Shown here piece after piece: positions 7,236 through 38,460 of a stretch of 64,000 bases of DNA. The first letter of the stretch is position 1; the number at the start of each line of letters is the position of its first letter. This DNA comes from Prevotella nigrescens. GTDB taxonomy: Bacteria > Bacteroidota > Bacteroidia > Bacteroidales > Bacteroidaceae. The notes beneath the pieces were generated by a model. It saw nothing but the letters and a program-made list of their open reading frames with translations. It made no database searches and was not told the DNA's origin. The DNA is taken from positions 434,001 to 498,000 of the forward strand of contig NZ_CP133464.1 in assembly GCF_031191185.1 (NCBI RefSeq). The letters are read 5' to 3'. The translations under genes and the position numbers were made by a program.

Positions 7236-7266
7236 TTTGTCAGTTTAGAATATTTTTGTAATTTTG
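7236..7266 (+). promoter_or_regulatory. Promoter of rpmB-rpmG-DUF4295
   Basis: TTTG at 7236-7239, a 19-bp spacer, then TAATTTTG at 7259-7266: a perfect match to the Bacteroidota vegetative consensus. The leader to the rpmB ATG is about 45 nt. Confidence 0.8.
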
Positions 7267-19865: not shown

Positions 19866-20060
19866 AAATATTTTTCACAAGCATATCTGTCGCATGACAA
19901 CCTTATTATCAACACATTGTAAAACCTATTGTTTTACGTTCCAAAAGAGCCGCTTTTGCAAGGTAAAAGCGGCTCTTTTGCGTTGCAAAACCTACGCTTT
20001 CGCAACGTCAAATCGAAATTATCGTTTTCCTTCCGAATTATCTTTATAAAATCAGGACGA
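19866..20060. repeat. Intergenic 22-bp-unit element with flanking arms, copy b
   Basis: Four 22-bp units start with AAA at 19922, 19944, 19966 and 19988. Units 2 and 3 are inverted copies and make a strong hairpin (AAAAGAGCCGCTTTT with AAAAGCGGCTCTTTT), able to act as a terminator both ways between the convergent barrel and crcB genes. The left flank (ATCAACACATTGT) and right flank (GAATTATCTTTATAAAATCA) recur at the copy at 52915-53110. Confidence 0.75.
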
Positions 20061-20157
20061 TTTCCATATATTGTTTCTAAAGTTTCTAAGGATTCTAAAA
20101 AACGATGTTCCCTATAATTCCTATACTCCTAAGCGTTCTTTTAAAAACTAAGGCATG

Positions 20158-20532
20158 CTAAAAGATGCGTGCTGCTTGCTGTCCTCCAACTACTGCAAGG
20201 AAGCCAACAAGAAAGCTGGCAAAAGTATAAAGTAACGCCGTGGTGTGCATTCCGTCTTTCAAAAGCGTGGCATTCTCGTTCATAAAGGTTGAGAAAGTGG
20301 TAAAACCGCCACATAATCCTGTTGTCAGCAGTAGGCGAGTGTTAGGACTGAGCGAGCTGCCAACGGGCAAAGCCGAGACAAAACCAATGATGAAGCAACC
20401 CAGAACATTCACGGCAAACGTGCCAAAAGGATAGGAGGAAACCACCATAGCCGACAACATGCGTGTTACAAGATAGCGAACTACACCACCGAAAAAGCTG
20501 CCGAAGCCCACAAGCATAATGTTTTTGAACAT
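20158..20532 (-). CDS. crcB: Fluoride channel CrcB/Fluc, canonical copy
   Basis: A 124-residue, four-helix membrane protein that exports fluoride. Family residues are present: GGVVRY (Arg19), GTFAVNVLGCFIIG (Asn42) and GGFTTFSTF (residues 75-83, with the phenylalanines of the ion path). I chose the ATG at 20532 (MFKNIMLVGF), the usual length; an upstream ATG at 20577 adds only 15 residues. A degenerate paralogue lies at 33416-33799 on the same strand, with the CRISPR locus between them. Confidence 0.92.
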   Translation of the reverse strand: MFKNIMLVGFGSFFGGVVRYLVTRMLSAMVVSSYPFGTFAVNVLGCFIIGFVSALPVGSSLSPNTRLLLTTGLCGGFTTFSTFMNENATLLKDGMHTTALLYTFASFLVGFLAVVGGQQAARIF

Positions 20533-20539
20533 CTGTTTT

Positions 20540-20752
20540 TTATGTGCAAAAATACGAAAAATGCAATAAATAGACAAACTCGCATCGGTTTTTAAAAGAA
20601 AAATTGTAACTATTATTAAGTTTGGGAAGTTCTTTCATGGCTTTTTTCAGTTCGTCAATCTCCAGCGCATCTGTTTCTGCACCATCTGGAATGGTCGTCA
20701 ACTTATGTTGCGGCTCATATTCTATAAATTCAACTTCGGACTTCTCTTGCAT
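20540..20752 (-). CDS. Possible small acidic protein upstream of crcB
   Basis: A 70-codon frame ending 8 bp before the crcB start. The first 50 residues are charged (EYEPQHKLTTIPDG, EIDELKKAMKEL), with codon use like real genes. The last 20 become aromatic and less credible. I recognise no family. It could be a small gene co-transcribed with crcB or a chance frame. Confidence 0.3.
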   Translation of the reverse strand: MQEKSEVEFIEYEPQHKLTTIPDGAETDALEIDELKKAMKELPKLNNSYNFSFKNRCEFVYLLHFSYFCT

Positions 20753-20934
20753 TATTCTATTTCATTCCACTGCACATATAAAAGCAAATACGTTTTGAAT
20801 ATTTCCATCGCATTTAAACCAATAATGAACCATTATGGTTTAATGGCTGATTGGGGTTAAATAAAATACCGACCATCTGAAGCATATTTCATTGAAATTT
20901 CGTAACTTTGTGGTGCAACATAAAAATAAAAGTT

Positions 20935-21774
20935 ATGGAATATACTAAATTAACAAATGGCGTAGAGATGCCATTATTAGGATATGGCGTGTTCAGAGTA
21001 CCGGCAGACGAGTGCGAACGGTGTGTAAGCGATGCGCTTTCTGTGGGCTACAGACTGATAGACACAGCACAAGTATATCGCAACGAAGAGGGTGTGGGCA
21101 GTGCATGGCGCAAGAGTGGCATTGCGAGGAACGAACTTTTTATTGTAACCAAGGTATGGATTACCAATTCGGGAGAAGAACGAGCAGCGGAAAGCATAGA
21201 CGAAAGTTTGCGCAAACTGCAAACCGACTACGTAGACTTGTTGCTTATCCATCAGCCTTACGGCGATGTGTTTGGCACGTGGCGCGCAATGGAGAAAGCA
21301 TATAAAGATGGTAAGGCACGTGCCATTGGCGTATCGAACTTTCAGGCAGGACGCTTCTTCGACTTCGTAAACTTTGCCGACACAAAACCAATGGTAAACC
21401 AATTGCAGTGCAACACGTTGGCACAACAAAAGGACATTCAGCCATTCCTGGCAGAAACAGGAACAAAAACAATGGCATGGGGTCCACTGGGCGGACAAGG
21501 TGCCGATGGTATTGTGAAGAGCGAACTGCTTGCAAGCATCGGACAGAAGTATGGCAAATCGGCAGCACAGGTGGCTCTCCGCTGGCTAATTCAGCGCGGC
21601 ATAGTTGCCATACCAAAGAGTAGCCATATAGAACGTATGAAACAGAACATCGATGTCTTCGACTTTTCGCTAACAAATGACGATATGGCGCAGATAGAAA
21701 CAATGAATCAATCGGACACTGGTTTCAGAAATTACACAGATCCACAATATATAAAGCATCTGATAGAGTTTTAA
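20935..21774 (+). CDS. Aldo/keto reductase
   Basis: A 279-residue NADPH-dependent oxidoreductase of the 2,5-diketo-gluconate reductase-like group. The TIM-barrel tetrad is visible: Asp and Tyr in LIDTAQVYRNE, Lys in IVTKVW and His in LLIHQP. The cofactor loop reads IPKSSHIERMKQN. The ATG at 20935 precedes the conserved MEYTKLTNGVEMP. A TAACTTTG -7 element at 20903-20910 lies 25 bp upstream, without a clear -33. The physiological substrate cannot be read from sequence. Confidence 0.93.
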   Translation: MEYTKLTNGVEMPLLGYGVFRVPADECERCVSDALSVGYRLIDTAQVYRNEEGVGSAWRKSGIARNELFIVTKVWITNSGEERAAESIDESLRKLQTDYVDLLLIHQPYGDVFGTWRAMEKAYKDGKARAIGVSNFQAGRFFDFVNFADTKPMVNQLQCNTLAQQKDIQPFLAETGTKTMAWGPLGGQGADGIVKSELLASIGQKYGKSAAQVALRWLIQRGIVAIPKSSHIERMKQNIDVFDFSLTNDDMAQIETMNQSDTGFRNYTDPQYIKHLIEF

Positions 21775-21869
21775 TAACAGAAGAAACCATCAAAACAAGT
21801 CGGTTTTGAGATTTGTGGTTTTGCACCGAATAAAGTAAAGTATAATTGAATGAAAAGAGGTAAAGAAGT

Positions 21870-22262
21870 ATGAAGAAATTAGTTTTAGCAGGAACTGTTA
21901 TAGCTCTTGTATTATCGGCTTGCCATTGTAAGGACAACAACAAAGATATATCGTTGACAGGAAAGAAAGCTACCCTAACCTATCCGGGCATGGTAGCCAA
22001 TGTGAAGTATCTAAACGATAGCACCATTCATTGGAAATCTATAGACGAAAACGATAGCATTGACGAACAAACTAAAGCAATGAAAATGAAAAAGATAGAC
22101 AATGGAAAGTTCTTTATTAGCTGGATAGGAGACTATGGTGTTACATCTAGTCAGGTGGTAGACCTAAATAAGAAGACTTTTATTGAGTTCTATACTTCGG
22201 CAGACATTTTAGGTAACCGAGTTGGTCAGATGATTGAAGGGAAATACGAGTTAGACAAATAA
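21870..22262 (+). CDS. Small lipoprotein, MoaF-like fold
   Basis: A 130-residue protein with a lipoprotein signal (ALVLSAC; cysteine near residue 18). The mature part reads like the MoaF/calycin-type barrel: LTGKKATLTYPG, NGKFFISWIGDYG, then SSQVVDLNKKTFIEFYTS. Function is unknown; the family call rests on motif resemblance only. It is the last gene before the CRISPR array, 139 bp upstream of the first repeat. Confidence 0.65.
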   Translation: MKKLVLAGTVIALVLSACHCKDNNKDISLTGKKATLTYPGMVANVKYLNDSTIHWKSIDENDSIDEQTKAMKMKKIDNGKFFISWIGDYGVTSSQVVDLNKKTFIEFYTSADILGNRVGQMIEGKYELDK

Positions 22263-22401
22263 GTCATAGCTTTTAGACATCGCCTCCTACCCATATCATA
22301 GCAGCAGGAGACAATTTGTTGTGTCTTAATACTCACTTCAATTTATTAAGGTGTCATATTTGCAATATAAATAGCAAGTATGATAACAGGCAGTCTCGTT
22401 C
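22263..22401 (+). other. Region upstream of the first CRISPR repeat (possible leader)
   Basis: This 139-bp stretch is AT-rich, with no gene and no degenerate repeat. Given the crRNA direction it is the 5' side of the array, so a leader or integration end would be expected here. I see only a weak promoter-like CATATTTG and no matching -33 element. Confidence 0.4.
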
Positions 22402-25400
22402 GTTGTGATTTGCTTAAAAAGTTGTATCTTTGTGGTGTCAATTACAACTATAAAGGTTGCGACATCGTTACTATCTCCGTTGTGATTTGCTTAAAAAGTT
22501 GTATCTTTGTGGTGTCAATTACAACCTATTTTCATAAGCACGTTTTCTTTCCTCAGTTGTGATTTGCTTAAAAAGTTGTATCTTTGTGGTGTCAATTACA
22601 ACAGTAAAAAAAGAAAGGACAAAAGCCAAAATGTTGTGATTTGCTTAAAAAGTTGTATCTTTGTGGTGTCAATTACAACAAAGTTTCTTAACCAATTCCG
22701 CATTCTGCGGTTGTGATTTGCTTAAAAAGTTGTATCTTTGTGGTGTCAATTACAACTTTCCATTCTCGTATATATTATGTATTTTAGTTGTGATTTGCTT
22801 AAAAAGTTGTATCTTTGTGGTGTCAATTACAACGCGGACGTAACGAGCCAGGTCCATACTCGCGTTGTGATTTGCTTAAAAAGTTGTATCTTTGTGGTGT
22901 CAATTACAACCAACACGTCGTGTTTTATCTTTAACAGATGGTTGTGATTTGCTTAAAAAGTTGTATCTTTGTGGTGTCAATTACAACACAAAATTTGATT
23001 AAAGTCCTCGCACATTGGTTGTGATTTGCTTAAAAAGTTGTATCTTTGTGGTGTCAATTACAACATCCACTTGTGGCGATATACTGTAAATACAGTTGTG
23101 ATTTGCTTAAAAAGTTGTATCTTTGTGGTGTCAATTACAACATCCTTTTCCTGCTTCGAAACACAGTCAGAGTTGTGATTTGCTTAAAAAGTTGTATCTT
23201 TGTGGTGTCAATTACAACTCTGTATATGTCGTTCCTCCCGTATCTTTGTTGTGATTTGCTTAAAAAGTTGTATCTTTGTGGTGTCAATTACAACCTTAAT
23301 TTGGGGTGTGGGGTTGGTAACTTGTTGTGATTTGCTTAAAAAGTTGTATCTTTGTGGTGTCAATTACAACTTCTTTTCTTTGGATTAATGAACAAACCAA
23401 GTTGTGATTTGCTTAAAAAGTTGTATCTTTGTGGTGTCAATTACAACCTGCAGTTACCACACCATTTGGTACACCATGTTGTGATTTGCTTAAAAAGTTG
23501 TATCTTTGTGGTGTCAATTACAACATTCCACCCTTACCGTCAATCTTCGGATAAGTTGTGATTTGCTTAAAAAGTTGTATCTTTGTGGTGTCAATTACAA
23601 CTCCCATAACTAACTAATCTTTAAAACATTGTTGTGATTTGCTTAAAAAGTTGTATCTTTGTGGTGTCAATTACAACTGCGTATCTAATATATGTGACTC
23701 TTTTCCAGTTGTGATTTGCTTAAAAAGTTGTATCTTTGTGGTGTCAATTACAACGAGCTTCACGAGCAGGTGGAGCGCGTGAATGTTGTGATTTGCTTAA
23801 AAAGTTGTATCTTTGTGGTGTCAATTACAACCTATTTCTGCCATACGGTTGGCGAAATCTGTTGTGATTTGCTTAAAAAGTTGTATCTTTGTGGTGTCAA
23901 TTACAACATATTTTAAAAATGGAATTACAGCCATTAGTTGTGATTTGCTTAAAAAGTTGTATCTTTGTGGTGTCAATTACAACATCAACATACTGCTTAA
24001 CTTCCGATTTATTGTTGTGATTTGCTTAAAAAGTTGTATCTTTGTGGTGTCAATTACAACTTCAGCAGTAAAATTAAAAGAGTTATTTGGTTGTGATTTG
24101 CTTAAAAAGTTGTATCTTTGTGGTGTCAATTACAACTCAATATCTTTATTATACTTATAAAAAAGGTTGTGATTTGCTTAAAAAGTTGTATCTTTGTGGT
24201 GTCAATTACAACATTTATCAATAACCGAATTGTCAAAAGCATGTTGTGATTTGCTTAAAAAGTTGTATCTTTGTGGTGTCAATTACAACCTCATTAGAAC
24301 AACGTAACACTCTATCATAGTTGTGATTTGCTTAAAAAGTTGTATCTTTGTGGTGTCAATTACAACATCAACTTCTTTAGCTGAAACAAGCGCTTGGTTG
24401 TGATTTGCTTAAAAAGTTGTATCTTTGTGGTGTCAATTACAACCGATTAACAACAAACAGTACATCTTTCTCGGTTGTGATTTGCTTAAAAAGTTGTATC
24501 TTTGTGGTGTCAATTACAACAAAAGGAATAAAATAGATAACACGCCAACAGTTGTGATTTGCTTAAAAAGTTGTATCTTTGTGGTGTCAATTACAACGTT
24601 GTACAAAATTCCATACAACGGCTATATGTTGTGATTTGCTTAAAAAGTTGTATCTTTGTGGTGTCAATTACAACGTGGCTTAAGCTGATTTACAACCATA
24701 CTATGTTGTGATTTGCTTAAAAAGTTGTATCTTTGTGGTGTCAATTACAACCACGTTCCTTATTAACGTTTATTCGTTCTAGTTGTGATTTGCTTAAAAA
24801 GTTGTATCTTTGTGGTGTCAATTACAACTATTACCAGTGGCTTACCTATCAAAAACTCGTTGTGATTTGCTTAAAAAGTTGTATCTTTGTGGTGTCAATT
24901 ACAACTGTCACATTGTAACGCATGTTTGTAACCTTGTTGTGATTTGCTTAAAAAGTTGTATCTTTGTGGTGTCAATTACAACACATAATAGAAAGTCCTA
25001 AATTATGAGACAGTTGTGATTTGCTTAAAAAGTTGTATCTTTGTGGTGTCAATTACAACCTTGATGAGCACGCTCAACGTCCATACCCTGTTGTGATTTG
25101 CTTAAAAAGTTGTATCTTTGTGGTGTCAATTACAACTTTTCAAGCGGAGATACCTGATTAGCACTAGTTGTGATTTGCTTAAAAAGTTGTATCTTTGTGG
25201 TGTCAATTACAACTATATGAATTACCAATTTCAAACTCAGATAGTTGTGATTTGCTTAAAAAGTTGTATCTTTGTGGTGTCAATTACAACCGACCATAAA
25301 ATATGCCCAACATAAATACCGTTGTGATTTGCTTAAAAAGTTGTATCTTTGTGGTGTCAATTACAACATAAACTTTTTTTGCATCCTTTGAATAGGCGTT

Positions 25401-28135
25401 GTGATTTGCTTAAAAAGTTGTATCTTTGTGGTGTCAATTACAACAAAAGTATTATTAATATTAAAATAATTATAGTTGTGATTTGCTTAAAAAGTTGTAT
25501 CTTTGTGGTGTCAATTACAACATTGTTTTAAAGGCATCGAAGCAATAGCTTGTTGTGATTTGCTTAAAAAGTTGTATCTTTGTGGTGTCAATTACAACTT
25601 GTGAAGGAATGATACCAATGCGCGACCTTGTTGTGATTTGCTTAAAAAGTTGTATCTTTGTGGTGTCAATTACAACAATATACTTGCAAAGCATATCATA
25701 CTGATGGTTGTGATTTGCTTAAAAAGTTGTATCTTTGTGGTGTCAATTACAACAATTTTAGTATCTATGAAGTCTTTACTGCGGTTGTGATTTGCTTAAA
25801 AAGTTGTATCTTTGTGGTGTCAATTACAACATAAATGATTTACTATTCATAAGCAAAACTGTTGTGATTTGCTTAAAAAGTTGTATCTTTGTGGTGTCAA
25901 TTACAACGGGAGAATTCTCCCCATACACTACTTATTAGTTGTGATTTGCTTAAAAAGTTGTATCTTTGTGGTGTCAATTACAACACATTGCTTAAAGTTA
26001 GAATTTAGTTGCAAGTTGTGATTTGCTTAAAAAGTTGTATCTTTGTGGTGTCAATTACAACTTTGCGTTTAGAATACACTTTTAACCTATTGTTGTGATT
26101 TGCTTAAAAAGTTGTATCTTTGTGGTGTCAATTACAACTATCATAGTCTTTAGCATGCCATTTCCTAGTTGTGATTTGCTTAAAAAGTTGTATCTTTGTG
26201 GTGTCAATTACAACGTAAAAGTCGTTATAAATACGTTGGTAACCGTTGTGATTTGCTTAAAAAGTTGTATCTTTGTGGTGTCAATTACAACTACCTTTCA
26301 TGTGCTTACCATCGGTACAAGGTTGTGATTTGCTTAAAAAGTTGTATCTTTGTGGTGTCAATTACAACTTGCATCACTGACGGCACTCATTACAGTAGGT
26401 TGTGATTTGCTTAAAAAGTTGTATCTTTGTGGTGTCAATTACAACTTAAATCCATAGTGTGCAGCTATCTGATTAGTTGTGATTTGCTTAAAAAGTTGTA
26501 TCTTTGTGGTGTCAATTACAACTTGCATCACTGACGGCACTCATTACAGTAGGTTGTGATTTGCTTAAAAAGTTGTATCTTTGTGGTGTCAATTACAACA
26601 AATTAAACAAAATCCCCCACAATGGGGGGAGTTGTGATTTGCTTAAAAAGTTGTATCTTTGTGGTGTCAATTACAACAAAGGCAGCAGTATTAAGAGGCT
26701 GCGTCCTGTTGTGATTTGCTTAAAAAGTTGTATCTTTGTGGTGTCAATTACAACCAAACATTCTGTCACCATTTGTTACTCCTGGTTGTGATTTGCTTAA
26801 AAAGTTGTATCTTTGTGGTGTCAATTACAACCACCAGCACCGCCAGATATTACTTCACCTAGTTGTGATTTGCTTAAAAAGTTGTATCTTTGTGGTGTCA
26901 ATTACAACTGATTATCTATCATAACGCCAGTTGCCTCTGTTGTGATTTGCTTAAAAAGTTGTATCTTTGTGGTGTCAATTACAACAAGGTAACGAAGAGA
27001 CTAACCATCTCTCCAGTTGTGATTTGCTTAAAAAGTTGTATCTTTGTGGTGTCAATTACAACTGGAGAAGACCACATTGTCGATGTCCTCCTGTTGTGAT
27101 TTGCTTAAAAAGTTGTATCTTTGTGGTGTCAATTACAACCGTTGAATAAATCGTTCGAGGTGGAAAGAGTTGTGATTTGCTTAAAAAGTTGTATCTTTGT
27201 GGTGTCAATTACAACCAAATGTAGGATTAGGCATAACAGCATTACGTTGTGATTTGCTTAAAAAGTTGTATCTTTGTGGTGTCAATTACAACCGAAAAAT
27301 TACGCAGAAGCAACAGGCGTTGGTTGTGATTTGCTTAAAAAGTTGTATCTTTGTGGTGTCAATTACAACTATATGATAAGCTGTATTTTCTTTTTGGTGT
27401 TGTGATTTGCTTAAAAAGTTGTATCTTTGTGGTGTCAATTACAACGGGGCGCAAGTTAAACATTAAACATTAGATGTTGTGATTTGCTTAAAAAGTTGTA
27501 TCTTTGTGGTGTCAATTACAACGATACGTCTCTCCGTCTGTATTTGAATAGCGTTGTGATTTGCTTAAAAAGTTGTATCTTTGTGGTGTCAATTACAACA
27601 TAACATAAATTTTTAATAAATAAATAAATGTTGTGATTTGCTTAAAAAGTTGTATCTTTGTGGTGTCAATTACAACCTTCAAGATGCTGCAAAGCATCCG
27701 TGCCCTGTTGTGATTTGCTTAAAAAGTTGTATCTTTGTGGTGTCAATTACAACGTTGTAGAAGTTACTATCAAAACCTTATTGTTGTGATTTGCTTAAAA
27801 AGTTGTATCTTTGTGGTGTCAATTACAACACGCACTTTCTTTGAAGAATACGAATACTTGTTGTGATTTGCTTAAAAAGTTGTATCTTTGTGGTGTCAAT
27901 TACAACTCTTCATGTGCTTGCCATCAGTACAAGAAGGTTGTGATTTGCTTAAAAAGTTGTATCTTTGTGGTGTCAATTACAACTTTAAGCGTTTCACGCA
28001 GAGCCAGGCAACGTTGTGATTTGCTTAAAAAGTTGTATCTTTGTGGTGTCAATTACAACACCGACACGCCAAGTGTCAGTGTGCCCATGTTGTGATTTGC
28101 TTAAAAAGTTGTATCTTTGTGGTGTCAATTACAAC
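22402..28135 (+). CRISPR. Type II-C CRISPR array, 75 repeats and 74 spacers
   Basis: I located every repeat start: 75 copies of a 47-nt repeat beginning GTTGTGATTTGC and ending CAATTACAAC, with no variant seen, even at either end. The spacers are 59 of 30 nt, 13 of 29 nt and 2 of 31 nt. The plus strand is the crRNA sense, because the anti-repeat in the tracrRNA pairs with the repeat 5' part. Each repeat holds GTTG at positions 1-4 and TATCTTTG at 24-31, separated by 19 bp, the form of a local promoter. Spacers 52 (26369) and 54 (26523) are identical. Spacers 51 (26292) and 72 (27907) match two versions of one coding stretch. Spacer 55 (26600) is itself a hairpin. The array converges on cas2. 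Confidence 0.99.
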
Positions 28136-28210
28136 TGATTATTAATAAATACTTGATAATCAGATATATGTATAGTTATTAAAAGAAAATAAAAATGAGA
28201 CCACAAAAGG

Positions 28211-28239
28211 AAATCCCACTCGGTAAGAGTGGGATTTTT
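28211..28239. terminator. Bidirectional terminator between the CRISPR array and cas2
   Basis: AAATCCCACTC and GAGTGGGATTT form an 11-bp stem with a 5-nt loop. A T run follows on the plus strand, and T-rich sequence follows on the minus strand. It separates the array transcript from the convergent cas9-cas2 transcript. Confidence 0.85.
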
Positions 28240-28258
28240 ACTTCTATATAGACAAGAC

Positions 28259-28600
28259 TTAGAATAGTTCTAATTGCTGTCCGGGTGCATTGGGTGGCTT
28301 AGGTTTCTCACAAGAAAATAATTGAATATTGGCAAATTGCTTATCGGTAATATACAATATACCCACATCTCCATGACGAGGAAGGTGGGCACGAATACGT
28401 TTCATGTGGACTTCGGCATTTTCCATACTCGCACAATGACGCACATAGATAGAGAACTGAAACATAGTAAAGCCGTCTTTCACTAAGAACTGACGAAAGT
28501 TAGTATAAGCCTTTTTATCTTTCTTAGTCTCAGTTGGTAAGTCGAAAAACACGAGAATCCACATGACACGATATTCGTTGAAACGATAACTATCTAACAT
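28259..28600 (-). CDS. cas2: CRISPR-associated endonuclease Cas2
   Basis: A 113-residue ferredoxin-like protein that normally forms the spacer-integration complex with Cas1. The first strand VMWILVFFDLP contains the conserved aspartate, followed by a basic helix (RQFLVKDGFTMFQFSIYVR) and GDVGILYITDKQF, all as in type II Cas2. It starts 33 bp after the cas9 stop and is co-directional. Its usual partner gene cas1 is missing from this position and from the window, so its role here is unclear without Cas1 supplied elsewhere. Confidence 0.96.
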   Translation of the reverse strand: MLDSYRFNEYRVMWILVFFDLPTETKKDKKAYTNFRQFLVKDGFTMFQFSIYVRHCASMENAEVHMKRIRAHLPRHGDVGILYITDKQFANIQLFSCEKPKPPNAPGQQLELF

Positions 28601-28633
28601 AAGAAAATAATAGCGTATGATATGGAGACATCG

Positions 28634-31600
28634 TTACTTGATAACTTTGATGATATTCCCCAAGCGATCTACCTTAAGTTTCCAGCAGATTTCTTTAATC
28701 ATTTCACCAGTTAGGGCACGTTGATTCTTTGACTGTGGGCTACCAAGTCCATACTCATTCAGAAAAACAGCACCATTACAGCATTTTTCGGCATATTCTT
28801 TATCTACATTATAAATAGTATTAGCCGATGTGTGAGGAACGAAATTGGCAGTTGTACCACTTGAATCAACGAATTTGTAGATTCTATCTCTACATAACTC
28901 ATCTTCATTTTCCTTAGTTGGGACATACACCAAATCGTTAGGCGATAAGTAAAACTTAAGTGGAATGTCAGCTTCATTGGCTTGGGGTACTGGACTCAGC
29001 CCCTCTTTTAGTCGCTCTACCACAATATTTAATGGAATTGTATCGTAACTACGTACCCCTAATTCATTTTCATAGATGGCAAAATAAAGGTTTGTTCCCT
29101 TTTCTGCTACTACAAATTTAGTAGCTTTATTGCCTGTTTGTCCCACGGGATATTTCATTCCTTTTGGTGTTGCCACTCTCACTTTCAGTATCGGCTGGTG
29201 TGCTTTACCGTCATTATATAGAGAGATGTTCTTATTCATCTCTTCAATACCTTCGGGCGTGAAGGCTATTTCCGCATTACCATCTTTCGTTTGAAGATAA
29301 TTTAATAAGATTTTCTGGATACCAGTATCGGTAATAGACGATATTTGTTTGTCATCGAACGATGTGTCGAGTGATTTTCTTCTTGCCACCATCTCTATTT
29401 TTTCATCGCTGAACTGCCACACTTCTACCTTCTCGACACATTGCCTGTTCAACCGATAGTTAATGCTTTTGAAGTGTGCTAACAATTGTCGTGTATTAAA
29501 ATGCTTCTCAACCAAAGCATTAATATAGTCGCGAAGAGTTTTATCGCAAATAGCGGGAATATTCTCTAAAGCCTTTTTTAGGCTGACAATAACCTTTCTG
29601 CAGAGATTCACACGACCGAAGACAGATTCTTTGTGCAGTGGTTTCCTGATAGCCCACATATCATTTCCTTTTTGCGAGATCATAACTTTATTGCCAGATG
29701 AACTATAATGTTCGTAGTAATTGGTAGCTTTATTAATAACACGCACATAATTTTTAAAGCTAACCACTACATCACTTAAAGCTTCACGAGCATCTTGCGT
29801 AAAGGTCTTCCATGGTTTTCTAATCTTGCGTTTCTCATCGCAAAGCTTTTTACGCAGGTCTTCACGCTTCTCAGGACTATTTGCCGATTCGTTGTTCAGA
29901 TAATTAACAATATTGCGCGAAGCACACGCAATAACAAGCGCGTCCATAGCATGGTGCCGGTGGTCGATGCGTTTCTTGCTAAACCCACGCTGCAATTCTA
30001 ATGGAACAGTAGTTTGAAAGACATGTTTACCGGCTTTATCTTCCCAATGACCGAATGCGTTTGTTTTTGTTATTTCGTTGAGTCGCTTGAAGCGTGGACA
30101 CACTATGCTACTCCAAACATCGTTCAGTCCCCAGTCTTTCTTTAGTCTATTGGTTATTGCACCATTGCACGACACAACGAATTTAGACGTTGCTTCTTGT
30201 TCGTTTTCGGCTCTGACAATATTGGACAGCACGGTTTGTACCATCTTACTTATATATCTGCTGTCATTCAGTTGTCGGGCTGAGAACTCTTGTGGGATAT
30301 CTTCCAATAGAAGTTTATCCCGTTTATATGTATTATCAATATAGTGCTTGGTTACGAAATCTTTATATTCTTCCTTCGTAAAAATCTTTACATCACCCAA
30401 CAATGTGCAATGTACTATCCGTCCTCCACATTCCTTAATAAACTCATAGCCCAACATATTATCCTTCAAACTATTTACTTCCGATTCACAAATAACTTTA
30501 TTATTGAAAGAATCGTCGAAATAACGACTCTGTGGAATGATATGCTCTATTTGATAAGCTGTGGTAAACAGCTTCGAAAGAGGAATTACCCTGCCTGTAT
30601 AAGGTGAACGATATTTCTGTTCGAGCCACAGTTTATATCGTGAAAGTTCCGTTGGTGAAGGCTGCGCCATCTTCGATATCTTTGAAATATCTTCAAACAT
30701 CTCGTCTTCTTTCGATAACTCTTGCAAAGCACCTTCTTCGTAAATACGTAATATTTCCTGTTGTGAGGGCGAGTAAGGACGTACGTTCTCTATCTTATCA
30801 TCGTTCTTCAGTTCCACCAGCAGATTTTTTATACGCAAATTTGTATTCTCATTACGTAGAATATCTTTTGTTTTGCGTGCTCGTTGCTCCGCTGTACTCT
30901 TCATGTTTCGTCCTAACTCTATATGGATTTCATCTATTTGTCCTGCATCTTTCCATATATCGTACACCGTACGAAGTGTTTCGAGTAAACATTGTTCTAC
31001 TATTGGGTTACGAAGCGAGTGTTGTTTAAACTTGTTTATATAAGTCTTTAAATCTTCTGGAGACTGCCAACATTGTATTTGCGCAGCCTCAGAGTGCCGA
31101 CCATACACTACATAACAAGCAAGCCATGTAGGCAAACCTTGAAAATCTGACAGTTTATTAAATGAAGAAACAGCCGCTTCTATTTTCTTTTTTAGCTTCT
31201 CATCAATATCGTTTTGCAGTATTTTGGCAATATTCTGCTTTGTTGCCTCACAAATATCAGCTTCTTTCCATAAACTGCCTCTACGCATAACAGCTAACAG
31301 TTTCTTTATTGCTTTTTCAGAATATGCCCCATACTCCTTTTCAAAAGGCTTTATTTTTAGGAACGAATTAACAAAAGCATCATCTATGTTAAGGTCGCCG
31401 AATGCTTTGTTTGCTTTCAGTTTACGCAATGCGCTTTCTGTTTCTTCTTTCGCTTCTATAGAATATAACAGATGCCAAAGCCTGTATTCTCTCTCTTCCA
31501 CATCTAACAATTCACGCGGTATGTCTGCTCTGTCGAATGCAAGAAGCAACTCATGTCGAGTAGCATTGCACGGATAGCTTTTATTAGCATCTTCTATGTA

Positions 31601-33154
31601 ATTCCAACGAATGGGATATATCTTCTCTGAACCTATGGATTCTTTCTTCAGCTTTAGGAAACTTCTCAAAAATGTTTCTTGTTTTATATCTTTCCGGTCA
31701 TTCAGAAAAGAAAATAAGCGGACATAATCTTCTTCCGTCTTAAGGTATTCTGCTGTTACCTCTTTGCCGTCTGTTACGCTGAAAAGGCGAAGATTGGCTA
31801 TAAACTGCCACAACCTGAACTCCTGATAATAAGGATTAGACTTAGCTATACATTTTATTTTCTTCTGCCCCTTTTTGCCTGTCAGCTTATCATCGTACTT
31901 ATATACTTCGTACGGACAATCGGCTATTAACGATTTCTTGCTTTTTAATGGTCGTTGATAGAATATCAAATCATTGAGAAGAAGAAATGTCATATCTTTC
32001 TTCAACAAGTATTCCTGATGCTGTTGGTTATTCTTATACAGTTCTTCAGCACATATTTTCAATGCTTCTAAGCTATGTAATCCTTCATGATACTTAGTTT
32101 GTTCGCGCAGAATTTCACGCAATTCATTCTTATAATACTTGCGTTCTATCGTGCGAATATACTTTCCACGAATCTTATCGAACGGCTTTTCTAAAAGATA
32201 GTCGTATATAAATGCACCTACAGTTTTATTCGAATCGTCTATAAATTTCTCCGTTCGGGTCTTTATAAGTTGCCAATCGTCTTTTTCAGGAGATTTGAAC
32301 GAACGCTTAACTTTGCCTTCCTTATCGCATTTGGGCGTTTTTCCATCGTCCTCATATTCGGTGGTTACAATATATTCTTTTACCTTTCCAACCCAGTCAT
32401 CTAATGGTATCTTACTCTGACAACGAGCTGTCCATCCGTTTTCTAAGTGTATATTGTACCACGTTTTCCCACCTTTTGGTGCTCCATCGGCTTCAACTCC
32501 AACAACTTTCAACTTATAATACTCTTTACGTTTCGTTAGATTATCTTCTTCTTCCTCGCCTCTCAACTGGTAATAGCCACGCTTCTGATTGAAATTAAGC
32601 AGAATCCAAGCCAATTCTTCTTTCTTTATTGGTCGTGTCAATGCTTTCTTTCGCAGATAATAAATGGTCCAATCAAGCGGTATTTTCTTTCCATCAGATA
32701 CTAATGATGGTTGGTTCTGGGCAAAATCTGCCACCATCTCGTTGAACGATTCCATAAAGAGAAAACGCATAGACCCGTCTTCTTGTCTCTCCCAAGCTAA
32801 TTTTGGCTCGCTATTATTAACGAATTTACCGTATGTGGCAGGTTCGTTTCTATCCCACCCTATGGCATCTTCATAATGTTTAGGTAGAAACTTTAATGCG
32901 TGTAGCACCCTGTGCAATCGTTCACGACGCAACAAATGTCGTTCTATTAAACGTCTATTGCCTCGAAAATCCGTTCTTATTGCCGTTTGAGACACCTTTA
33001 CTCCTTTGTCGAAATCACCAAGCATATCTTGAGTCATAGGTATAATACGACTGCCAAGCTTAATGTTTCTTAAGTAGTTTCCTTCATCGTCTACTTCTAC
33101 TTTAGCCCAACCAATGCTATTGGGTCCTAAGTCTAATCCAAGGATTGTTTTCAT
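28634..33154 (-). CDS. cas9: CRISPR-associated nuclease Cas9, type II-C
   Basis: A 1506-residue RNA-guided DNA nuclease of the large Bacteroidota type II-C group. Parts in order: RuvC-I LGLDLGPNSIGW with Asp8; arginine-rich bridge helix at about 60-88 (RGNRRLIERHLLRRERLHR); a long recognition lobe; RuvC-II IHIELGR with Glu746; HNH IEHIIPQS with His871, and Asn885 in NNKV; RuvC-III HRHHAMDA with His1068 and Asp1071; then a C-terminal wedge/PAM-interacting region. All catalytic residues are present and the frame is unbroken, so it should be active. It is followed directly by cas2 with no cas1, and the tracrRNA gene is divergent just upstream. The PAM cannot be deduced from the sequence. Confidence 0.98.
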   Translation of the reverse strand: MKTILGLDLGPNSIGWAKVEVDDEGNYLRNIKLGSRIIPMTQDMLGDFDKGVKVSQTAIRTDFRGNRRLIERHLLRRERLHRVLHALKFLPKHYEDAIGWDRNEPATYGKFVNNSEPKLAWERQEDGSMRFLFMESFNEMVADFAQNQPSLVSDGKKIPLDWTIYYLRKKALTRPIKKEELAWILLNFNQKRGYYQLRGEEEEDNLTKRKEYYKLKVVGVEADGAPKGGKTWYNIHLENGWTARCQSKIPLDDWVGKVKEYIVTTEYEDDGKTPKCDKEGKVKRSFKSPEKDDWQLIKTRTEKFIDDSNKTVGAFIYDYLLEKPFDKIRGKYIRTIERKYYKNELREILREQTKYHEGLHSLEALKICAEELYKNNQQHQEYLLKKDMTFLLLNDLIFYQRPLKSKKSLIADCPYEVYKYDDKLTGKKGQKKIKCIAKSNPYYQEFRLWQFIANLRLFSVTDGKEVTAEYLKTEEDYVRLFSFLNDRKDIKQETFLRSFLKLKKESIGSEKIYPIRWNYIEDANKSYPCNATRHELLLAFDRADIPRELLDVEEREYRLWHLLYSIEAKEETESALRKLKANKAFGDLNIDDAFVNSFLKIKPFEKEYGAYSEKAIKKLLAVMRRGSLWKEADICEATKQNIAKILQNDIDEKLKKKIEAAVSSFNKLSDFQGLPTWLACYVVYGRHSEAAQIQCWQSPEDLKTYINKFKQHSLRNPIVEQCLLETLRTVYDIWKDAGQIDEIHIELGRNMKSTAEQRARKTKDILRNENTNLRIKNLLVELKNDDKIENVRPYSPSQQEILRIYEEGALQELSKEDEMFEDISKISKMAQPSPTELSRYKLWLEQKYRSPYTGRVIPLSKLFTTAYQIEHIIPQSRYFDDSFNNKVICESEVNSLKDNMLGYEFIKECGGRIVHCTLLGDVKIFTKEEYKDFVTKHYIDNTYKRDKLLLEDIPQEFSARQLNDSRYISKMVQTVLSNIVRAENEQEATSKFVVSCNGAITNRLKKDWGLNDVWSSIVCPRFKRLNEITKTNAFGHWEDKAGKHVFQTTVPLELQRGFSKKRIDHRHHAMDALVIACASRNIVNYLNNESANSPEKREDLRKKLCDEKRKIRKPWKTFTQDAREALSDVVVSFKNYVRVINKATNYYEHYSSSGNKVMISQKGNDMWAIRKPLHKESVFGRVNLCRKVIVSLKKALENIPAICDKTLRDYINALVEKHFNTRQLLAHFKSINYRLNRQCVEKVEVWQFSDEKIEMVARRKSLDTSFDDKQISSITDTGIQKILLNYLQTKDGNAEIAFTPEGIEEMNKNISLYNDGKAHQPILKVRVATPKGMKYPVGQTGNKATKFVVAEKGTNLYFAIYENELGVRSYDTIPLNIVVERLKEGLSPVPQANEADIPLKFYLSPNDLVYVPTKENEDELCRDRIYKFVDSSGTTANFVPHTSANTIYNVDKEYAEKCCNGAVFLNEYGLGSPQSKNQRALTGEMIKEICWKLKVDRLGNIIKVIK

Positions 33155-33169
33155 TTTATCTTGTTTTAA

Positions 33170-33201
33170 TTTGGTTTTTAATTATTAAATGCTTAAATTT
33201 G
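33170..33201 (+). promoter_or_regulatory. tracrRNA promoter
   Basis: TTTG at 33170-33173, a 20-bp spacer and TAAATTTG at 33194-33201, matching the Bacteroidota consensus. Transcription would start at about 33206-33210, at the first base of the anti-repeat. Confidence 0.8.
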
Positions 33202-33205
33202 CACT

Positions 33206-33300
33206 CAACTTTTTAAGCAAGTCACAATAAGGATTATTCCGTTGTGAAAACAAATTGGGTGGGACACTTCAGGTGTACTCACCCTCCTTATTTTATATAT
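33206..33300 (+). ncRNA. tracrRNA
   Basis: The anti-repeat is at 33206-33228. It pairs with bases 1-23 of the CRISPR repeat without a mismatch, using two G-U pairs. It is followed by ACAATAAGGATTATTCCG, which resembles the nexus region after the anti-repeat of other type II-C tracrRNAs, and then by a stem GGGTGGGACAC with GTGTACTCACCC (one bulge) near 33267-33294. A T-rich tail follows (CCTTATTTTAT). It is transcribed away from cas9, the same direction as the array. The 3' end is approximate. Confidence 0.88.
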
Positions 33301-33415
33301 GGGTTCAAATTTAGTAATAATTTTATAGACTTGCAACTTTTCTTAATTCTTTTTCATACTTCGTTCTTGTGCAGAAGAAGGCTTAAAAGGACCATTTCCA
33401 AACAGTATTTGCTGC

Positions 33416-33799
33416 TTATAATTTGTTGAAAAAGGTAGCTGTCAGTTGTCCCATCAATACTGCAAGCGAACCTAAAACGATGCTTCCAAGAAGATAAAGG
33501 AGTGTTGCTGTAGGTGCTCCTCCCTTCCAAAGTGTCGCATTTCCGTGCGAAAAGGTTGAACAGACTATGAAACCGGCACACAGACCAATCACCAACATTA
33601 ACCGTGTATGGGGATTAAGCGACTGACTATAATGGAAAATGGAAGCAAAGCCAACGATAAAGCAGCTTAATATATTAACGAAAAACACTGCACGAGGCGT
33701 TGGCTGGGTTACGAAATTCGACACCATGCGCATGACAAAGGGGCTTATGACAGCACCAAAGGCACCACTAAAGATTAATAGAATAATATTGATTGCCAT
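33416..33799 (-). CDS. CrcB/Fluc-like protein, degenerate copy
   Basis: A 127-residue four-helix membrane protein that aligns without gaps over its first 90 residues with the canonical CrcB at 20158-20532. Asn42 and the final Phe83 are kept. The RY pair at 19-20 is SP, Gly45 is Ser, and GGFTTF (75-80) reads AGFIVC, so one pathway phenylalanine and the central threonines are lost. Alone it is unlikely to be a normal channel; it may form a heterodimer with the canonical copy, or have another job. A TATCTTTG element on the minus strand (33815-33822) lies just before the ATG. Confidence 0.8.
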   Translation of the reverse strand: MAINIILLIFSGAFGAVISPFVMRMVSNFVTQPTPRAVFFVNILSCFIVGFASIFHYSQSLNPHTRLMLVIGLCAGFIVCSTFSHGNATLWKGGAPTATLLYLLGSIVLGSLAVLMGQLTATFFNKL

Positions 33800-33937
33800 C
33801 TGCTTTTTTGTCTACAAAGATACAAAATCCACAATAAATAAACGAACGTAGCTATGTTTTAAAAAGAAAAATAGTAACTTTGCTTCTCAAAAAACACCGA
33901 CGAAAGGTGCATTTTAACAACCATTTTACAAGCAAAG

Positions 33938-36571
33938 ATGATATATCCCAACAATTTTGAACAGAAAATAGGTTTCAACGAAATTCGTTCGCTACTGCAC
34001 GAACGCTGTCTTTCCACGCTCGGACGCGAGCAGGTAGACTGCATGGAGTTCTCTTCCGACACGACACAGATTAACTGTTGGCTGACCGAAGTGCGCGAGT
34101 TTCGCCGCATTCAGGACGGTTTAGAACCCTTTCCACTCGACAACGTGTTCGATGTCCGGGCAAGCGTGGCTCGCATTCGCCTTGAAGGCACGCACATGGA
34201 AGAGGACGAACTCTTCGATTTGAAGCGGTCTTTGGAGACCATCATTGCGGTTGTTAAGTTTCTAAGTGCGGGCGAAGCGTTGCCAAATGGAGAAATACAA
34301 CGCACCTACCCTACCCTTTATGCGCTTTCCGATGGCGTGGCAACGTTCCCAGTCTTGGTGCAACGCATCAGCCAAATCATCGATAAATTCGGCAAAATGC
34401 GCGATTCTGCATCGCCAGACCTGCTCCAAATCCGCCGAGAACTGGCTCGTGTGGAGAGCAGCATATCGCGCACGCTGACCCATATCCTGCATTCGGCACA
34501 GAGCGAGGGCGTGGTAGACCGCGACGTAACACCGACCATGCGCGACGGACGCTTGGTTATTCCAGTGGCTCCGGGCATGAAACGCAAGATTTCGGGTATT
34601 GTACACGACGAGAGTGCAACGGGAAAGACGGTCTTCATAGAGCCTGCCGAGGTGGTGGAAGCCAACAACAAGATACGCGAATTGGAGAATGAGGAACGCA
34701 AAGAGATTATCCGCATACTCCGAGAGTTTGCCAAACAGGTGCGTCCGCACGTCCGCGAAATCCTCGATTCCTATCATTTCCTTGCCCTTATCGACTTTAT
34801 CAGGGCGAAAGCAGAGCTGGCTCGTATGTTCAAAGCCATTGAACCGGAAGTCGGAACAGAGCCGTACATCGACTTTATTCGTGCCATTCACCCGCTGTTG
34901 CAGCTTTCGTTGGCTAAGAAACAGCGCACGGCAGAAAACAGCGATGCCCCTTTGGCAGTCGTTCCGCTCGACATTCAGCTTACAAAAGAAAAACATTTGC
35001 TTATTATTTCCGGACCAAATGCCGGCGGAAAGTCAGTCTGTCTGAAAACCGCCGGACTGCTTCAGTATATGCTTCAGTGTGGTCTTTCAATCCCAGTGAG
35101 CGAGCGTTCCACCGCAGGAACGTTCCAGAACCTCATGATAGACATTGGTGATGAGCAGAGTATAGAGAACGATTTAAGTACATATTCATCTCATTTGATG
35201 AACATGAAAGCCATGATGAGGCAGGCAAACAGCCACACGCTCATCTTGATAGACGAGTTCGGAACGGGAACGGAGCCGCAGATAGGCGGTGCAATCGCCG
35301 AAGCTGTGCTGAAACAGTTCTGGAAAAAGCAGGCGTGGGCGGTGATAACGACCCACTATCAGAACCTTAAGCACTTCTCAGAAGACCACAAAGGAGTGGT
35401 GAACGGGGCTATGTTGTACGACAGGCACGAGATGCGACCGCTCTTTCAGTTGGCTATCGGTCGTCCGGGCAGCTCGTTTGCCATAGAAATAGCGCGCAAA
35501 ACGGGTATTCCCGAAGAAGTTATCAGCGATGCTTCTGCCATTGTTGGCTCGGATTACATACAGAGCGACAAGTATTTACAGGATATTGTTCGAGATAAAC
35601 GCTATTGGGAAGCAAAGCGACAGACCGTGCACAGCCACGAAAAGGAACTGGAACGAACCATTGCCAAATACGAAAAGGAACTGGAAGAGCTGCGCCAAAG
35701 TCGTAAGGAAATTATAAAGAAGGCGAAAGAAGAGGCGGAGGAGATAATCCGAGAAACCAACAAGCGCGTTGAAAACACCATTAGAGAGATACGCCAACAG
35801 CAGGCGGAGAAAGAAGCAACGAAACGTATTCGACAGGAACTTGCTGCCTACGAGCAATCTATGCTCGGTGGTTCTACAATATCTTCAGGTGGAAAAGACA
35901 ACGCAAAGACACCGAAAGCAAACAACAAGCAAGCTATGCGCGAAGGTGGTTTGATGACCGACGAGGAACTGCAGGCACGCATAGAAAAGATAAAGAACAG
36001 GAAAGAACGACACGAACGACACCTGCATGAGAAGGAAGAACGCAAGCAGAATGCTGCCGAAGGACTGAGGGCGGCTGCCGAAAAGCGGGCTGCCGCCCGA
36101 CCAATTGGCGTAAATGACACCGTTCGCATCAAGGGATTGACATCAATTGGGACGGTTGAGACAACCGATAACAAGCAAGCTGTGGTGATATTTGGCGGAA
36201 TGCGCACCAAGATGGCGCTGTCGCGGCTTGAACGTGTAGATGAAAACACGCTGAAAGAAAGTCAGAAACAGTTTACAGCATACAGCTATAGCCGACAGAC
36301 CCGGGAGACGATAGACGAGCATCGCAACCAGTTCAAACAAGAAATAGACGTGCGGGGAATGCGCACCGACGAGGCTTTAAACCAAGTGCAACACTTCATT
36401 GACGACGCCATTCTTGTTGGCGTGAGCCAAGTGCGCATACTTCATGGAAAGGGGAACGGCATTCTGCGCACCATGATAAGGCAGTATCTGAATGCCATTC
36501 CGAACGTCAGGAACACCCGGGACGAGCACGTTCAGTTCGGAGGAGCCGGCATAACGGTAGTAGAATTATAG
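33938..36571 (+). CDS. mutS2: MutS2 family protein with Smr domain
   Basis: An 877-residue ATPase/endonuclease, linked in other bacteria to control of recombination and to collided-ribosome rescue. Parts: MutS-like core and lever (residues about 10-320), Walker A GPNAGGKS near 356, Walker B with DEFGTGTEP near 445, a long charged coiled-coil region (about 545-690), and a C-terminal Smr domain (DVRGMRTDEAL near 803; HGKGNG near 832). It has no mismatch-recognition domain, which separates it from MutS. A TAACTTTG element lies at 33875-33882. Confidence 0.95.
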   Translation: MIYPNNFEQKIGFNEIRSLLHERCLSTLGREQVDCMEFSSDTTQINCWLTEVREFRRIQDGLEPFPLDNVFDVRASVARIRLEGTHMEEDELFDLKRSLETIIAVVKFLSAGEALPNGEIQRTYPTLYALSDGVATFPVLVQRISQIIDKFGKMRDSASPDLLQIRRELARVESSISRTLTHILHSAQSEGVVDRDVTPTMRDGRLVIPVAPGMKRKISGIVHDESATGKTVFIEPAEVVEANNKIRELENEERKEIIRILREFAKQVRPHVREILDSYHFLALIDFIRAKAELARMFKAIEPEVGTEPYIDFIRAIHPLLQLSLAKKQRTAENSDAPLAVVPLDIQLTKEKHLLIISGPNAGGKSVCLKTAGLLQYMLQCGLSIPVSERSTAGTFQNLMIDIGDEQSIENDLSTYSSHLMNMKAMMRQANSHTLILIDEFGTGTEPQIGGAIAEAVLKQFWKKQAWAVITTHYQNLKHFSEDHKGVVNGAMLYDRHEMRPLFQLAIGRPGSSFAIEIARKTGIPEEVISDASAIVGSDYIQSDKYLQDIVRDKRYWEAKRQTVHSHEKELERTIAKYEKELEELRQSRKEIIKKAKEEAEEIIRETNKRVENTIREIRQQQAEKEATKRIRQELAAYEQSMLGGSTISSGGKDNAKTPKANNKQAMREGGLMTDEELQARIEKIKNRKERHERHLHEKEERKQNAAEGLRAAAEKRAAARPIGVNDTVRIKGLTSIGTVETTDNKQAVVIFGGMRTKMALSRLERVDENTLKESQKQFTAYSYSRQTRETIDEHRNQFKQEIDVRGMRTDEALNQVQHFIDDAILVGVSQVRILHGKGNGILRTMIRQYLNAIPNVRNTRDEHVQFGGAGITVVEL

Positions 36572-36848
36572 GGCTTGCACATATTCATAAAGCGTCGTCG
36601 TGTCCCGGCAGTGTGTAGCAAAACACCGTTGAGCCTGCTTTATTGCATGCCTAATATCTATGTTGTACCGTTTCATCGTTGCCAATTGTCCACAGTATGG
36701 ACACGATGATGCAATGAATTGACTGCCATCTACTTTCAACATGCCTGCGGATATGCACAAGCAGACAGACAGATATCCATTATATGGAGTCGTAACACAG
36801 AGTGTTCTGCAATGATTAAAAACCCCAATGTGTGGTTGCTGATTTTCA

Positions 36849-36936
36849 AAAGAGCCTGTTCTGTACACCAAAAGAGCCTGTTTTACCTTGCAAAAGGGCT
36901 TGTTTTGGCATGCAAAACAGGCTCTTTTGCAATCCA
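36849..36936. repeat. 22-bp-unit intergenic element, copy c
   Basis: Four units start with AAA at 36849, 36871, 36893 and 36915. The first two begin AAAGAGCCTGTT and the last AAACAGGCTCTTTT is their inverse, giving a terminator-like hairpin. The right flank (CAATCCATTGATAATG) resembles, inverted, the left flank of the copy at 55118. It lies in the 36572-37242 gap between mutS2 and a secreted protein; no convincing gene is seen in that gap. Confidence 0.75.
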
Positions 36937-37242
36937 TTGATAATGAAATGGTTAAAGAATACGGCAGAATATGCCTCATACGCAGCCATTTAAACACCGC
37001 TTTTTTATATATCAACAAAGCGGAAAACGAAGCAAATGGGATTTAATTGTGAGACTTTGACAATATTCGACCCATCGGTTTGGCAGTAAAGACAAAAAGA
37101 CGTAACTTTGCCATGGCACGCAATGCAGGTTTACCGATGCTGAAACGATACTGCCATGGCGTTGCCCTTGCAGCATAACGCCCAATGTATGGTATGCACA
37201 TACCGATGCGTGAGCGATGTGGTAAATAATCCAAATGGTACA

Positions 37243-38460
37243 ATGAAAAGATTTCAAACAACCCTGTTAATGCTTGTTGTGGCAACAATGTCGCTGCAAT
37301 GCAATGCACAGACCACGAAAACAACGGTCGATGCCCATCAGCAGGAAATGGCATCACGCCCCGTCTACAAGCGTTTGCTCACGCGCGAACAGCTGGAAGC
37401 AATGGGAATTAACTGGAACAAACTGCTGAAACATATAGAACTTCAGAAAGTTGCATGGAAAGGAGGCGACTTTCGCGACGACCAATCGGAACCAAGATAC
37501 GAGCCAACGCGCGAAGATTTTCTGCTAACAATACCCTTAGTGGAATATTATATGCGCACACATGGCTACCAAAAGCCTTCCGACGAACTTTTTGCACAAC
37601 GCATACAAGAAGTGTTTGGTGCAAATCTTAATATGCAAAGTCAGAAACCTTATTTGCCTATACAAGGAGAAGCTGATTACAATTTTGCCAGTACGTATTA
37701 TGCCTTGTGTGGTAAAGGTATTATAACCTACAACTGGTTGTTAGACGATTTGATGGACGTTAGAACAAACAAAATAGTGTTGCGCCCGAAAATATTTCAG
37801 CAAATACTTGCCCTGAACAACTTTGTCATGTACAACGATACAGCAGCTTTCAAGTTCTTGACGCAGGCAACCTATAGCGGACACGAGGACGACTATGATG
37901 GAATGGGCGACCCTTACGATGGAAACAATATTCTGTGCGATTTGTTTTCAACCTATAACTATTATGGAAGTGCCCCACTTAACCAGTGGTATTTTACCAC
38001 ACAAGACGTTAATCCAGTGTTGTTCTATCATCTAATATTCGAAAGAACACCGCAAGGCAAGTTGGTTGCCCATCGTCAGCTGATAGAATTGATAGAGCAA
38101 AACACCACAGGCACAGATACATACACGTATTGGAAGTATTTTGGCAGACTGCTTTTTGACGTATTAGACAACGAAGACGACTTTAAAGATATGCACTATA
38201 GCGTTGTACATAAGGCAAAAATGCTTTGCTATTTTGCCAATTCGGAACACAAAATGCGCAAGCGTTATGCCAAATATATACCTTCGCTCACAGCAACAGC
38301 TTATTGGGACAAGTCTTCAACCACCTCTTCCATGATTATGCAGCACCCCGATGTGTACGATATGGCATGCAAATACAACTACTTCGGAGTGGTTAGACCC
38401 GAAGTAATGAAGGCGTATGCCGCAGAAGCCGAGCAGCGGAAGAAGAACGAAGGAATGTAA
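37243..38460 (+). CDS. Secreted protein of unknown function
   Basis: A 405-residue protein with a signal peptide (MKRFQTTLLMLVVATMSLQCNAQ). The mature part is rich in Tyr, Asp and Lys, with blocks such as YEPTREDFLLTIPLVEYYM and DPYDGNNILCDLFSTYNYYG. I recognise no family and no catalytic motif. No lipobox of the normal form precedes the cysteine at residue 20. The ATG at 37243 is fixed by the signal peptide; the upstream open frame is not convincing. It has no close neighbours on the same strand. Confidence 0.7.
   Translation: MKRFQTTLLMLVVATMSLQCNAQTTKTTVDAHQQEMASRPVYKRLLTREQLEAMGINWNKLLKHIELQKVAWKGGDFRDDQSEPRYEPTREDFLLTIPLVEYYMRTHGYQKPSDELFAQRIQEVFGANLNMQSQKPYLPIQGEADYNFASTYYALCGKGIITYNWLLDDLMDVRTNKIVLRPKIFQQILALNNFVMYNDTAAFKFLTQATYSGHEDDYDGMGDPYDGNNILCDLFSTYNYYGSAPLNQWYFTTQDVNPVLFYHLIFERTPQGKLVAHRQLIELIEQNTTGTDTYTYWKYFGRLLFDVLDNEDDFKDMHYSVVHKAKMLCYFANSEHKMRKRYAKYIPSLTATAYWDKSSTTSSMIMQHPDVYDMACKYNYFGVVRPEVMKAYAAEAEQRKKNEGM

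Follow-up and report, generated by a model that had tools for sequence, protein, structure and literature searches.

Promoters located within the repeats of CRISPR (clustered regularly interspaced short palindromic repeats) arrays are known from type II-C systems. In Neisseria meningitidis, each repeat reportedly (Zhang, 2013) provides a promoter giving rise to short CRISPR RNAs (crRNAs), and the same is proposed here for an array of Prevotella nigrescens lying in a stretch of 64,000 nucleotides (NZ_CP133464.1, positions 434,001 to 498,000), hereafter called the window. The N. meningitidis promoter is said to be that of a proteobacterial sigma factor, unlike the one proposed for the window. 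Campylobacter jejuni also possesses a promoter in every repeat, while the 3′ end of its crRNAs is made by the trans-activating CRISPR RNA (tracrRNA) and RNase III (Dugar 2013, PMC3656092; this and the other published accounts are given as far as the parts covered go). The repeats of C. jejuni have an extended -10 box, GGTAAAAT, at their end, and the primary ends are found at spacer position 5, whereas in the window the motif TAnnTTTG lies inside a 47-nt repeat and the predicted start is still within this repeat (PMC3656092). A parallel with the type II-C arrays of both species had already been drawn in an earlier inspection of the window (the original prediction), and it holds.

Closer to Prevotella, repeat promoters were proposed from a TTG motif for the II-C systems of Flavobacterium columnare (PMC8092290) and F. 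psychrophilum (PMC10309648). Like the window, these belong to Bacteroidota, and transcription proceeds toward the leader; for F. columnare, eight reads on the array were reported (PMC8092290). In the parts of both reports covered, TAnnTTTG is mentioned in connection with the cas9 gene and not with the repeats, in which it is located in the window. No repeat promoter was found by the authors for R. anatipestifer, according to the parts covered (PMC5006608). The II-C array CRISPR-I of Prevotella intermedia has a 47-nt repeat as in the window, whose reverse complement contains TATCTTTG at positions 24-31. Its authors gave the repeat in the opposite orientation and did not strongly predict anti-repeat promoters, and the covered parts of their paper make no mention of repeat promoters (PMC5608340). 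In the study of Feussner et al. 2025, each II-C repeat is said to possess a promoter; in 364 II-C arrays, most changes of the first repeat were in the first 15 nt, and the authors suggest that this repeat must retain promoter function (PMC12080349). Words beginning with Bacteroid- or Prevotella- are absent from its text, and a TAnnTTTG box does not occur in the parts covered. Naming of TAnnTTTG inside type II-C repeats was not found in the literature searched, from which subscription papers and preprints were mostly absent. While repeat promoters are known in II-C and proposed in Flavobacterium, the window appears to hold a version based on the Bacteroidota -7 box, which is well supported by the comparisons described below. 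With a probability of about 0.8, the Bacteroidota primary sigma factor uses a -7 box (TAnnTTTG) present in every repeat of this type II-C-like array and transcription for the adjacent spacer starts shortly past it, so that each spacer can probably be switched on from a promoter of its own.

The -7 box in the repeats of the window and its relatives

As stated in the original prediction, GTTG at repeat positions 1-4 and TATCTTTG at positions 24-31 are separated by exactly 19 bases, which was confirmed in all 75 exact 47-nt copies. A random 47-mer of the same composition holds TTG-N19-21-TAnnTTTG on either strand with a probability of approximately 0.0007. The pattern TTTG-N19-21-TAnnTTTG was found 294 times in the host genome versus 45 times for the pattern read backwards, and ten times in the window versus 1.42 expected, but not in the array. 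The promoters at 7236, 13177 and 58348 to which the repeat had been likened exist and are all of the type TTTG-N19-TAnnTTTG. However, the first box of the repeat is GTTG instead of a TTTG at a spacing of 19 to 21, and thus no repeat matches the full pattern.

For comparison, a match to Cas9 (PF18541) was detected in 63 of the 395 phylum genomes searched (the window's own genome among them) and in 143 of the 399 genomes searched from the window's family. Analyzed were 63 stretches from 62 other phylum genomes and 80 places in the window's family, the latter a non-random choice from more than 150 (about 70 high-scoring places plus ten from a weaker-scoring group). One more locus, from Prevotella amnii, was the only one obtained in a scan of genome contigs for named relatives and was assigned to the window's family by inference. 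The 84 family loci yielded 63 long-repeat arrays and nine short-repeat arrays, while none was used for 12 loci. Arrays were found by a script and then oriented by the 5′ signature of the repeat (GTTG or GCTG), a rule that turned 13 of the 124 repeats of at least 34 nt that were kept from 126; the second repeat of L067 and L166 were left out for being shorter. Nine of 35 candidate places served as presumed class 1 controls, their type being inferred from Cas1 score and repeat. Related repeats are not independent, and the 75 copies of the array count as one observation.

In the window's family, TAnnTTTG was present in 49 of the 56 distinct long repeats (63 loci), whereas sets shuffled from position 15 to the end contained 0.83 boxed repeats on average and five at the most in 500 shuffles. 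The box begins at position 24 in 46 of the 49 boxed repeats, at position 25 in one and at position 26 in two, corresponding to spacings of 19, 20 and 21 to GTTG, and the three shifted boxes are still intact. Mean information in the 53 distinct 47-nt repeats amounted to 1.46 bits at positions 24-31, compared to 1.02 at positions 15-23 and 0.55 at positions 32-42. Within the window's family, the check suggested with the original prediction, conservation of the box in other 47-nt repeats while further positions vary, came out in favor of the -7 box. Only the -7 box combines a fixed place in each repeat with conservation exceeding that of its surroundings. Among 1024 interior repeats (units with no more than eight changes), 19 changes were detected, none of which, out of this small number, affected the six core positions. 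TAnnTTTG was contained neither in the nine short, leader-driven type II repeats of the family nor, in either orientation, in the nine presumed class 1 repeats. The possibility that the repeat bears another promoter on its reverse strand was rejected, as this strand lacked TAnnTTTG in all 56 distinct long family repeats.

The most common nn in boxed repeats is TC (37/49), as in the promoters of the family loci (27/151), whose preferred spacing is 20 (78 of the 151 matches), followed by 19 (63) and 21 (10). A TAnnTTTG located not more than 45 nt before the tracrRNA anti-repeat was found in 48 of 54 loci with a clear anti-repeat (2.6 expected), and in 26 of these 48 the anti-repeat begins 3-4 nt after TTTG. 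The situation is different for the proposed -33 box. GTTG or GCTG begins all 124 repeats, boxed or not, which is partly by construction since this signature was used for orienting, and in 22 eroded first repeats TTG was kept at a spacing of 18 to 22 in three cases versus 2.2 by chance. Hence, of the embedded promoter originally predicted, the -7 half is supported by conservation, the oldest repeats, the controls and the host tendency, but the -33 half is not, because GTTG is unspecific and is not kept in eroded first repeats. GTTG may act as a weak upstream contact, though nothing here indicates that it is kept for that.

Oldest repeats, array direction and host promoters

For R. anatipestifer it was shown that new spacers enter at the leader end, which makes the repeat at the trailer end the oldest one. 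Any oldest repeat is expected to be eroded in its outer half. The oldest units were read with a detector treating both halves alike, while wholly eroded units could be missed by an earlier first-repeat test. Forty-five of the 63 family loci were readable. In 22 of them, the 5′ half was lost and the 3′ half kept, eight kept both halves with changes, one kept only the 5′ half, and 14 were without a recognizable further unit. Of the 30 units with a kept 3′ half, 28 derive from boxed repeats, and 26 of these 28 retain TAnnTTTG, a figure that is conditional because units were picked for a kept 3′ half. As this choice favors a kept box, better evidence comes from the changes inside the box, nine of which fell on the two nn positions and three on the six core positions (p=0.0004). 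It is this pattern that goes beyond the findings of Feussner et al. 2025.

The direction of the arrays is in line with transcription from within the repeats. In 62 of the 63 family long-repeat loci (exception: L147), the crRNA strand is opposite to that of cas9 and is read in the direction of this gene. As this strand heads to the cas genes and the leader, a leader promoter cannot serve these arrays. Moreover, there was no excess of TAnnTTTG on their leader side (3/62 versus 8.2 expected; opposite strand, 6 versus 6.7), and a leader promoter for long arrays was rejected. All nine family short-repeat loci have crRNAs and cas9 on the same strand, the arrays being read away from cas9, and in eight of them TAnnTTTG is located in the leader, not more than 200 nt from the first repeat (0.7 expected). 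Another family contributed eight short arrays that likewise run away and are without the exact box. From direction and box placement it follows that the window's family tends to rely on a leader promoter in arrays facing away and on a repeat box in those facing the leader. An outside promoter (TTG-N18-22-TAnnTTTG, no more than 100 nt ahead of the first repeat) was identified in two of four readable loci without the box (L133 and L149) compared to one of 39 with it (p=0.019).

The match of the repeat box also tends to follow promoter usage of the host. Among 47 leader-facing arrays (11 with the exact box, 36 without), a stronger genome-wide excess of the promoter pattern went along with a more frequent exact box (p=1.6e-5), and the averages of 19 families gave rho -0.56 (p=0.013). 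Since the loci share ancestry, this is a trend and not a proof.

The mechanism inferred here comprises transcription itself, its start site, use of the sigma factor and processing by RNase III; it builds on sequence, conservation, geometry, the pattern in the oldest repeats and the tendency to follow host promoters, which are established by the analysis. RNA polymerase would start a few bases past the -7 box, 4-8 nt after TTTG and near repeat positions 35-39, because the promoter boxes of B. thetaiotaomicron are centered at -7 and -33 (PMC7366714, parts covered) and because of the anti-repeat distance of 3-4 nt mentioned above. The transcript would begin with the final 8-12 nt of the repeat, continue through the spacer and extend across the 5′ half of the following repeat, with which the tracrRNA is expected to pair and where RNase III could cut; the -7 box lies directly downstream of the pairing segment. 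As the predicted start is inside the repeat, some 8-12 nt of repeat would remain ahead of a 30-nt spacer, and the earlier claim that crRNAs need no 5′ processing is unsupported. Likewise, the number of 75 crRNAs has to be lowered, since 74 spacers allow for 74. In an array read toward the leader, every spacer, including the newest one at the leader end, would have a promoter of its own.

If true, this would account for the expression of new spacers in the leader-facing arrays of Bacteroidota, which form a major part of the gut flora, and the newest spacer would not be the last one on a 5.7-kb transcript. Arrays reported as leader-forward would need to be turned round. An insertion within an array, such as the one (transposase) described for P. 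intermedia ATCC 25611 (PMC5608340, parts covered), need not silence the spacers beyond it, and a link between repeat evolution and the host sigma factor would become directly testable. As a tentative and rather doubtful extension, repeats may be tuned to the host sigma factor in such a way that II-C arrays carry the promoter box of their host. Moved into a host with another promoter grammar, an array would then be silent unless the repeat changed or an outside promoter was gained, the array direction would decide between leader and repeat promoter, and the host polymerase would limit the spread of II-C systems.

Alternative explanations

It is conceivable that TATCTTTG is inert and that transcription yields one long precursor of the whole array, originating either from a trailer-end promoter or from read-through of the plus-strand gene at 21870-22262. 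No intrinsic terminator was found between this gene and the array (22263..22401), and in 11 of 43 long arrays TAnnTTTG is located upstream of the first repeat at a distance of up to 200 nt, compared to 3.9 expected. A full TTTG-N19-21-TAnnTTTG, however, was present on this side in one of the 43 arrays, and in the window there is no TAnnTTTG on the plus strand within 300 nt upstream of the first repeat. Transcription as a single precursor, which would also leave unexplained why the box is conserved, why changes in the oldest repeats gather at the nn positions and why outside promoters are more common where the box is missing, is therefore judged unlikely. The chance that the box is kept merely through slow repeat evolution is slim. 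The repeats are indeed related, as the 56 distinct ones thin to 23 at 80% identity, but in the 20 thinned 47-nt repeats positions 32-42 vary freely (0.43 bits, compared to 1.12 at positions 24-31 and 0.80 at positions 15-23) and in three repeats the box has moved unbroken.

Repeat interiors can guide spacer integration, and both ends of the repeat are conserved, too, so the box might serve another task such as recognition by Cas1-Cas2 at spacer insertion, its likeness to a promoter being accidental. This is very improbable given that oldest repeats with a surviving 3′ half, although remote from the insertion end, keep TAnnTTTG and have changed in it mostly at nn. In addition, the box is absent from many type II repeats of the phylum, its match tends to follow host promoter usage, and in three family repeats it is shifted. 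Conservation due to tracrRNA pairing or to an RNA hairpin in the precursor can hardly be credited. In single-sequence folds, positions 28-31 are paired with a mean probability of 0.55-0.69, but in the consensus fold of the 53 repeats pairing is confined to the five outermost bases on either side, by which the hairpin was rejected. Pairing with the tracrRNA was rejected for the window since the match of its anti-repeat, which covers repeat positions 2-23, ends at position 23.

A repeat-borne promoter also has to be weighed against observations that do not fit it well. Seven of the 56 distinct long family repeats are devoid of the box. Outside the window's family, the exact box was found in 4/23 long and 4/23 short distinct repeats, the remaining ones being one or more bases off. 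A C following TTTG, present in 74% of the family promoters, occurs in just 33% of the boxed repeats, and the window repeat has a T; the repeats may therefore be weak promoters, which may suit a unit repeated 75 times. The chance-level retention of the upstream TTG points in the same direction as these findings. Regarding the oldest units, two (L131 and L137) have lost TAnnTTTG, some of the 14 loci without a recognizable further unit may have eroded throughout, the conditional nature of the 26/28 figure has to be borne in mind, and recombination with newer repeats could partly account for the kept inner half. Two of the unboxed loci with readable flanks (L115 and L132) showed no outside promoter. 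Finally, the host trend weakened when the window's family was dropped (p=0.043) and more so when the families f22 and f24, which have the poorest boxes at a high promoter count, were omitted as well (p=0.14), and L043, a clear exception, lacks the box in spite of a host that uses the consensus.

The locus and further observations

Coordinates of the features are compiled below. The crRNA strand is deduced from the anti-repeat, whose position implies that the array is read on the plus strand toward cas2. The array is thus read toward the cas genes on the strand opposite to cas9, which is the geometry of type II-C. The anti-repeat starts four bases past the tracrRNA promoter, the tracrRNA gene preceding cas9, and its match stops just before the -7 box of the repeat.

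Features of the CRISPR-Cas locus in the window
Feature	Position	Strand	Remark
Trailer-side flank of the array	22263..22401	+	
CRISPR array, 75 identical 47-nt repeats, 74 spacers	22402..28135	+ (crRNA strand)	strand from anti-repeat
GTTG, proposed -33 box, first repeat	22402..22405	+	not specific to repeats with the -7 box
First copy of the putative -7 box TATCTTTG	22425..22432	+	repeat positions 24-31; same place in all 75
Leader side, last repeat to terminator	28136..28208		
Terminator-like hairpin	28209..28239	+	would end array transcripts before cas2
cas2	28259..28600	-	
cas9 (1506 aa)	28634..33154	-	
tracrRNA promoter TTTG-N20-TAAATTTG	33170..33201	+	
tracrRNA anti-repeat	33206..33227	+	by sequence; matches repeat positions 2-23

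An exact-copy scan of the window revealed 59 spacers of 30 nt, 13 of 29 nt and two of 31 nt. One 30-nt spacer is present twice, at 26369-26398 and 26523-26552, with a single spacer separating the copies. On the leader side (28136..28208), TAnnTTTG was found on neither strand. The minus-strand version of the terminator-like hairpin (28237-28211) would end the cas operon. The Cas9 protein matches TIGR01865 (E=1e-114) and comprises HNH (HNH_4) and RuvC (RuvC_III) domains as well as the bridge helix; it is the single Cas9 match of the genome. Between cas9 and cas2 (28601-28633), cas1 is missing, while 62 of the 63 family long-repeat loci have cas1 nearby, the window being the exception. Among the neighboring reading frames tested, there was no match to other cas genes including csn2 and cas4, and an Rfam search of 20000-38000 gave no match.

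The array is long and its repeats are identical, despite the absence of a local cas1. A second contig of the same genome harbors a cas1-cas2 pair (L177:3801-5081) with no array in the 10 kb read, and this pair, whose cas2 is 65% identical to that of the window, could supply Cas1 in trans. It adjoins a transposase-like reading frame (L177:5708-6172, named by eye).

Some minor observations concern promoter motifs. In the 151 family promoter matches, the box is followed by C in 74% (TAnnTTTGC) and by A eight bases on in 64%. The occurrence of TAnnTTTG ahead of the anti-repeat offers a handy way of locating tracrRNA 5′ ends. Three loci of another family with 36-nt repeats (L051, L052 and L053) have TAnnTTTG at position 21, 16 bp after GTTG and outside the usual spacing. 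Leader-facing 36-nt repeats of other families (L033, L034, L036-L039, L042, L043, L048, L058, L060 and L064) end in TAGATT, TACATT or GATATT, which resembles the -10 box at the end of the C. jejuni repeats and possibly reflects another promoter grammar.

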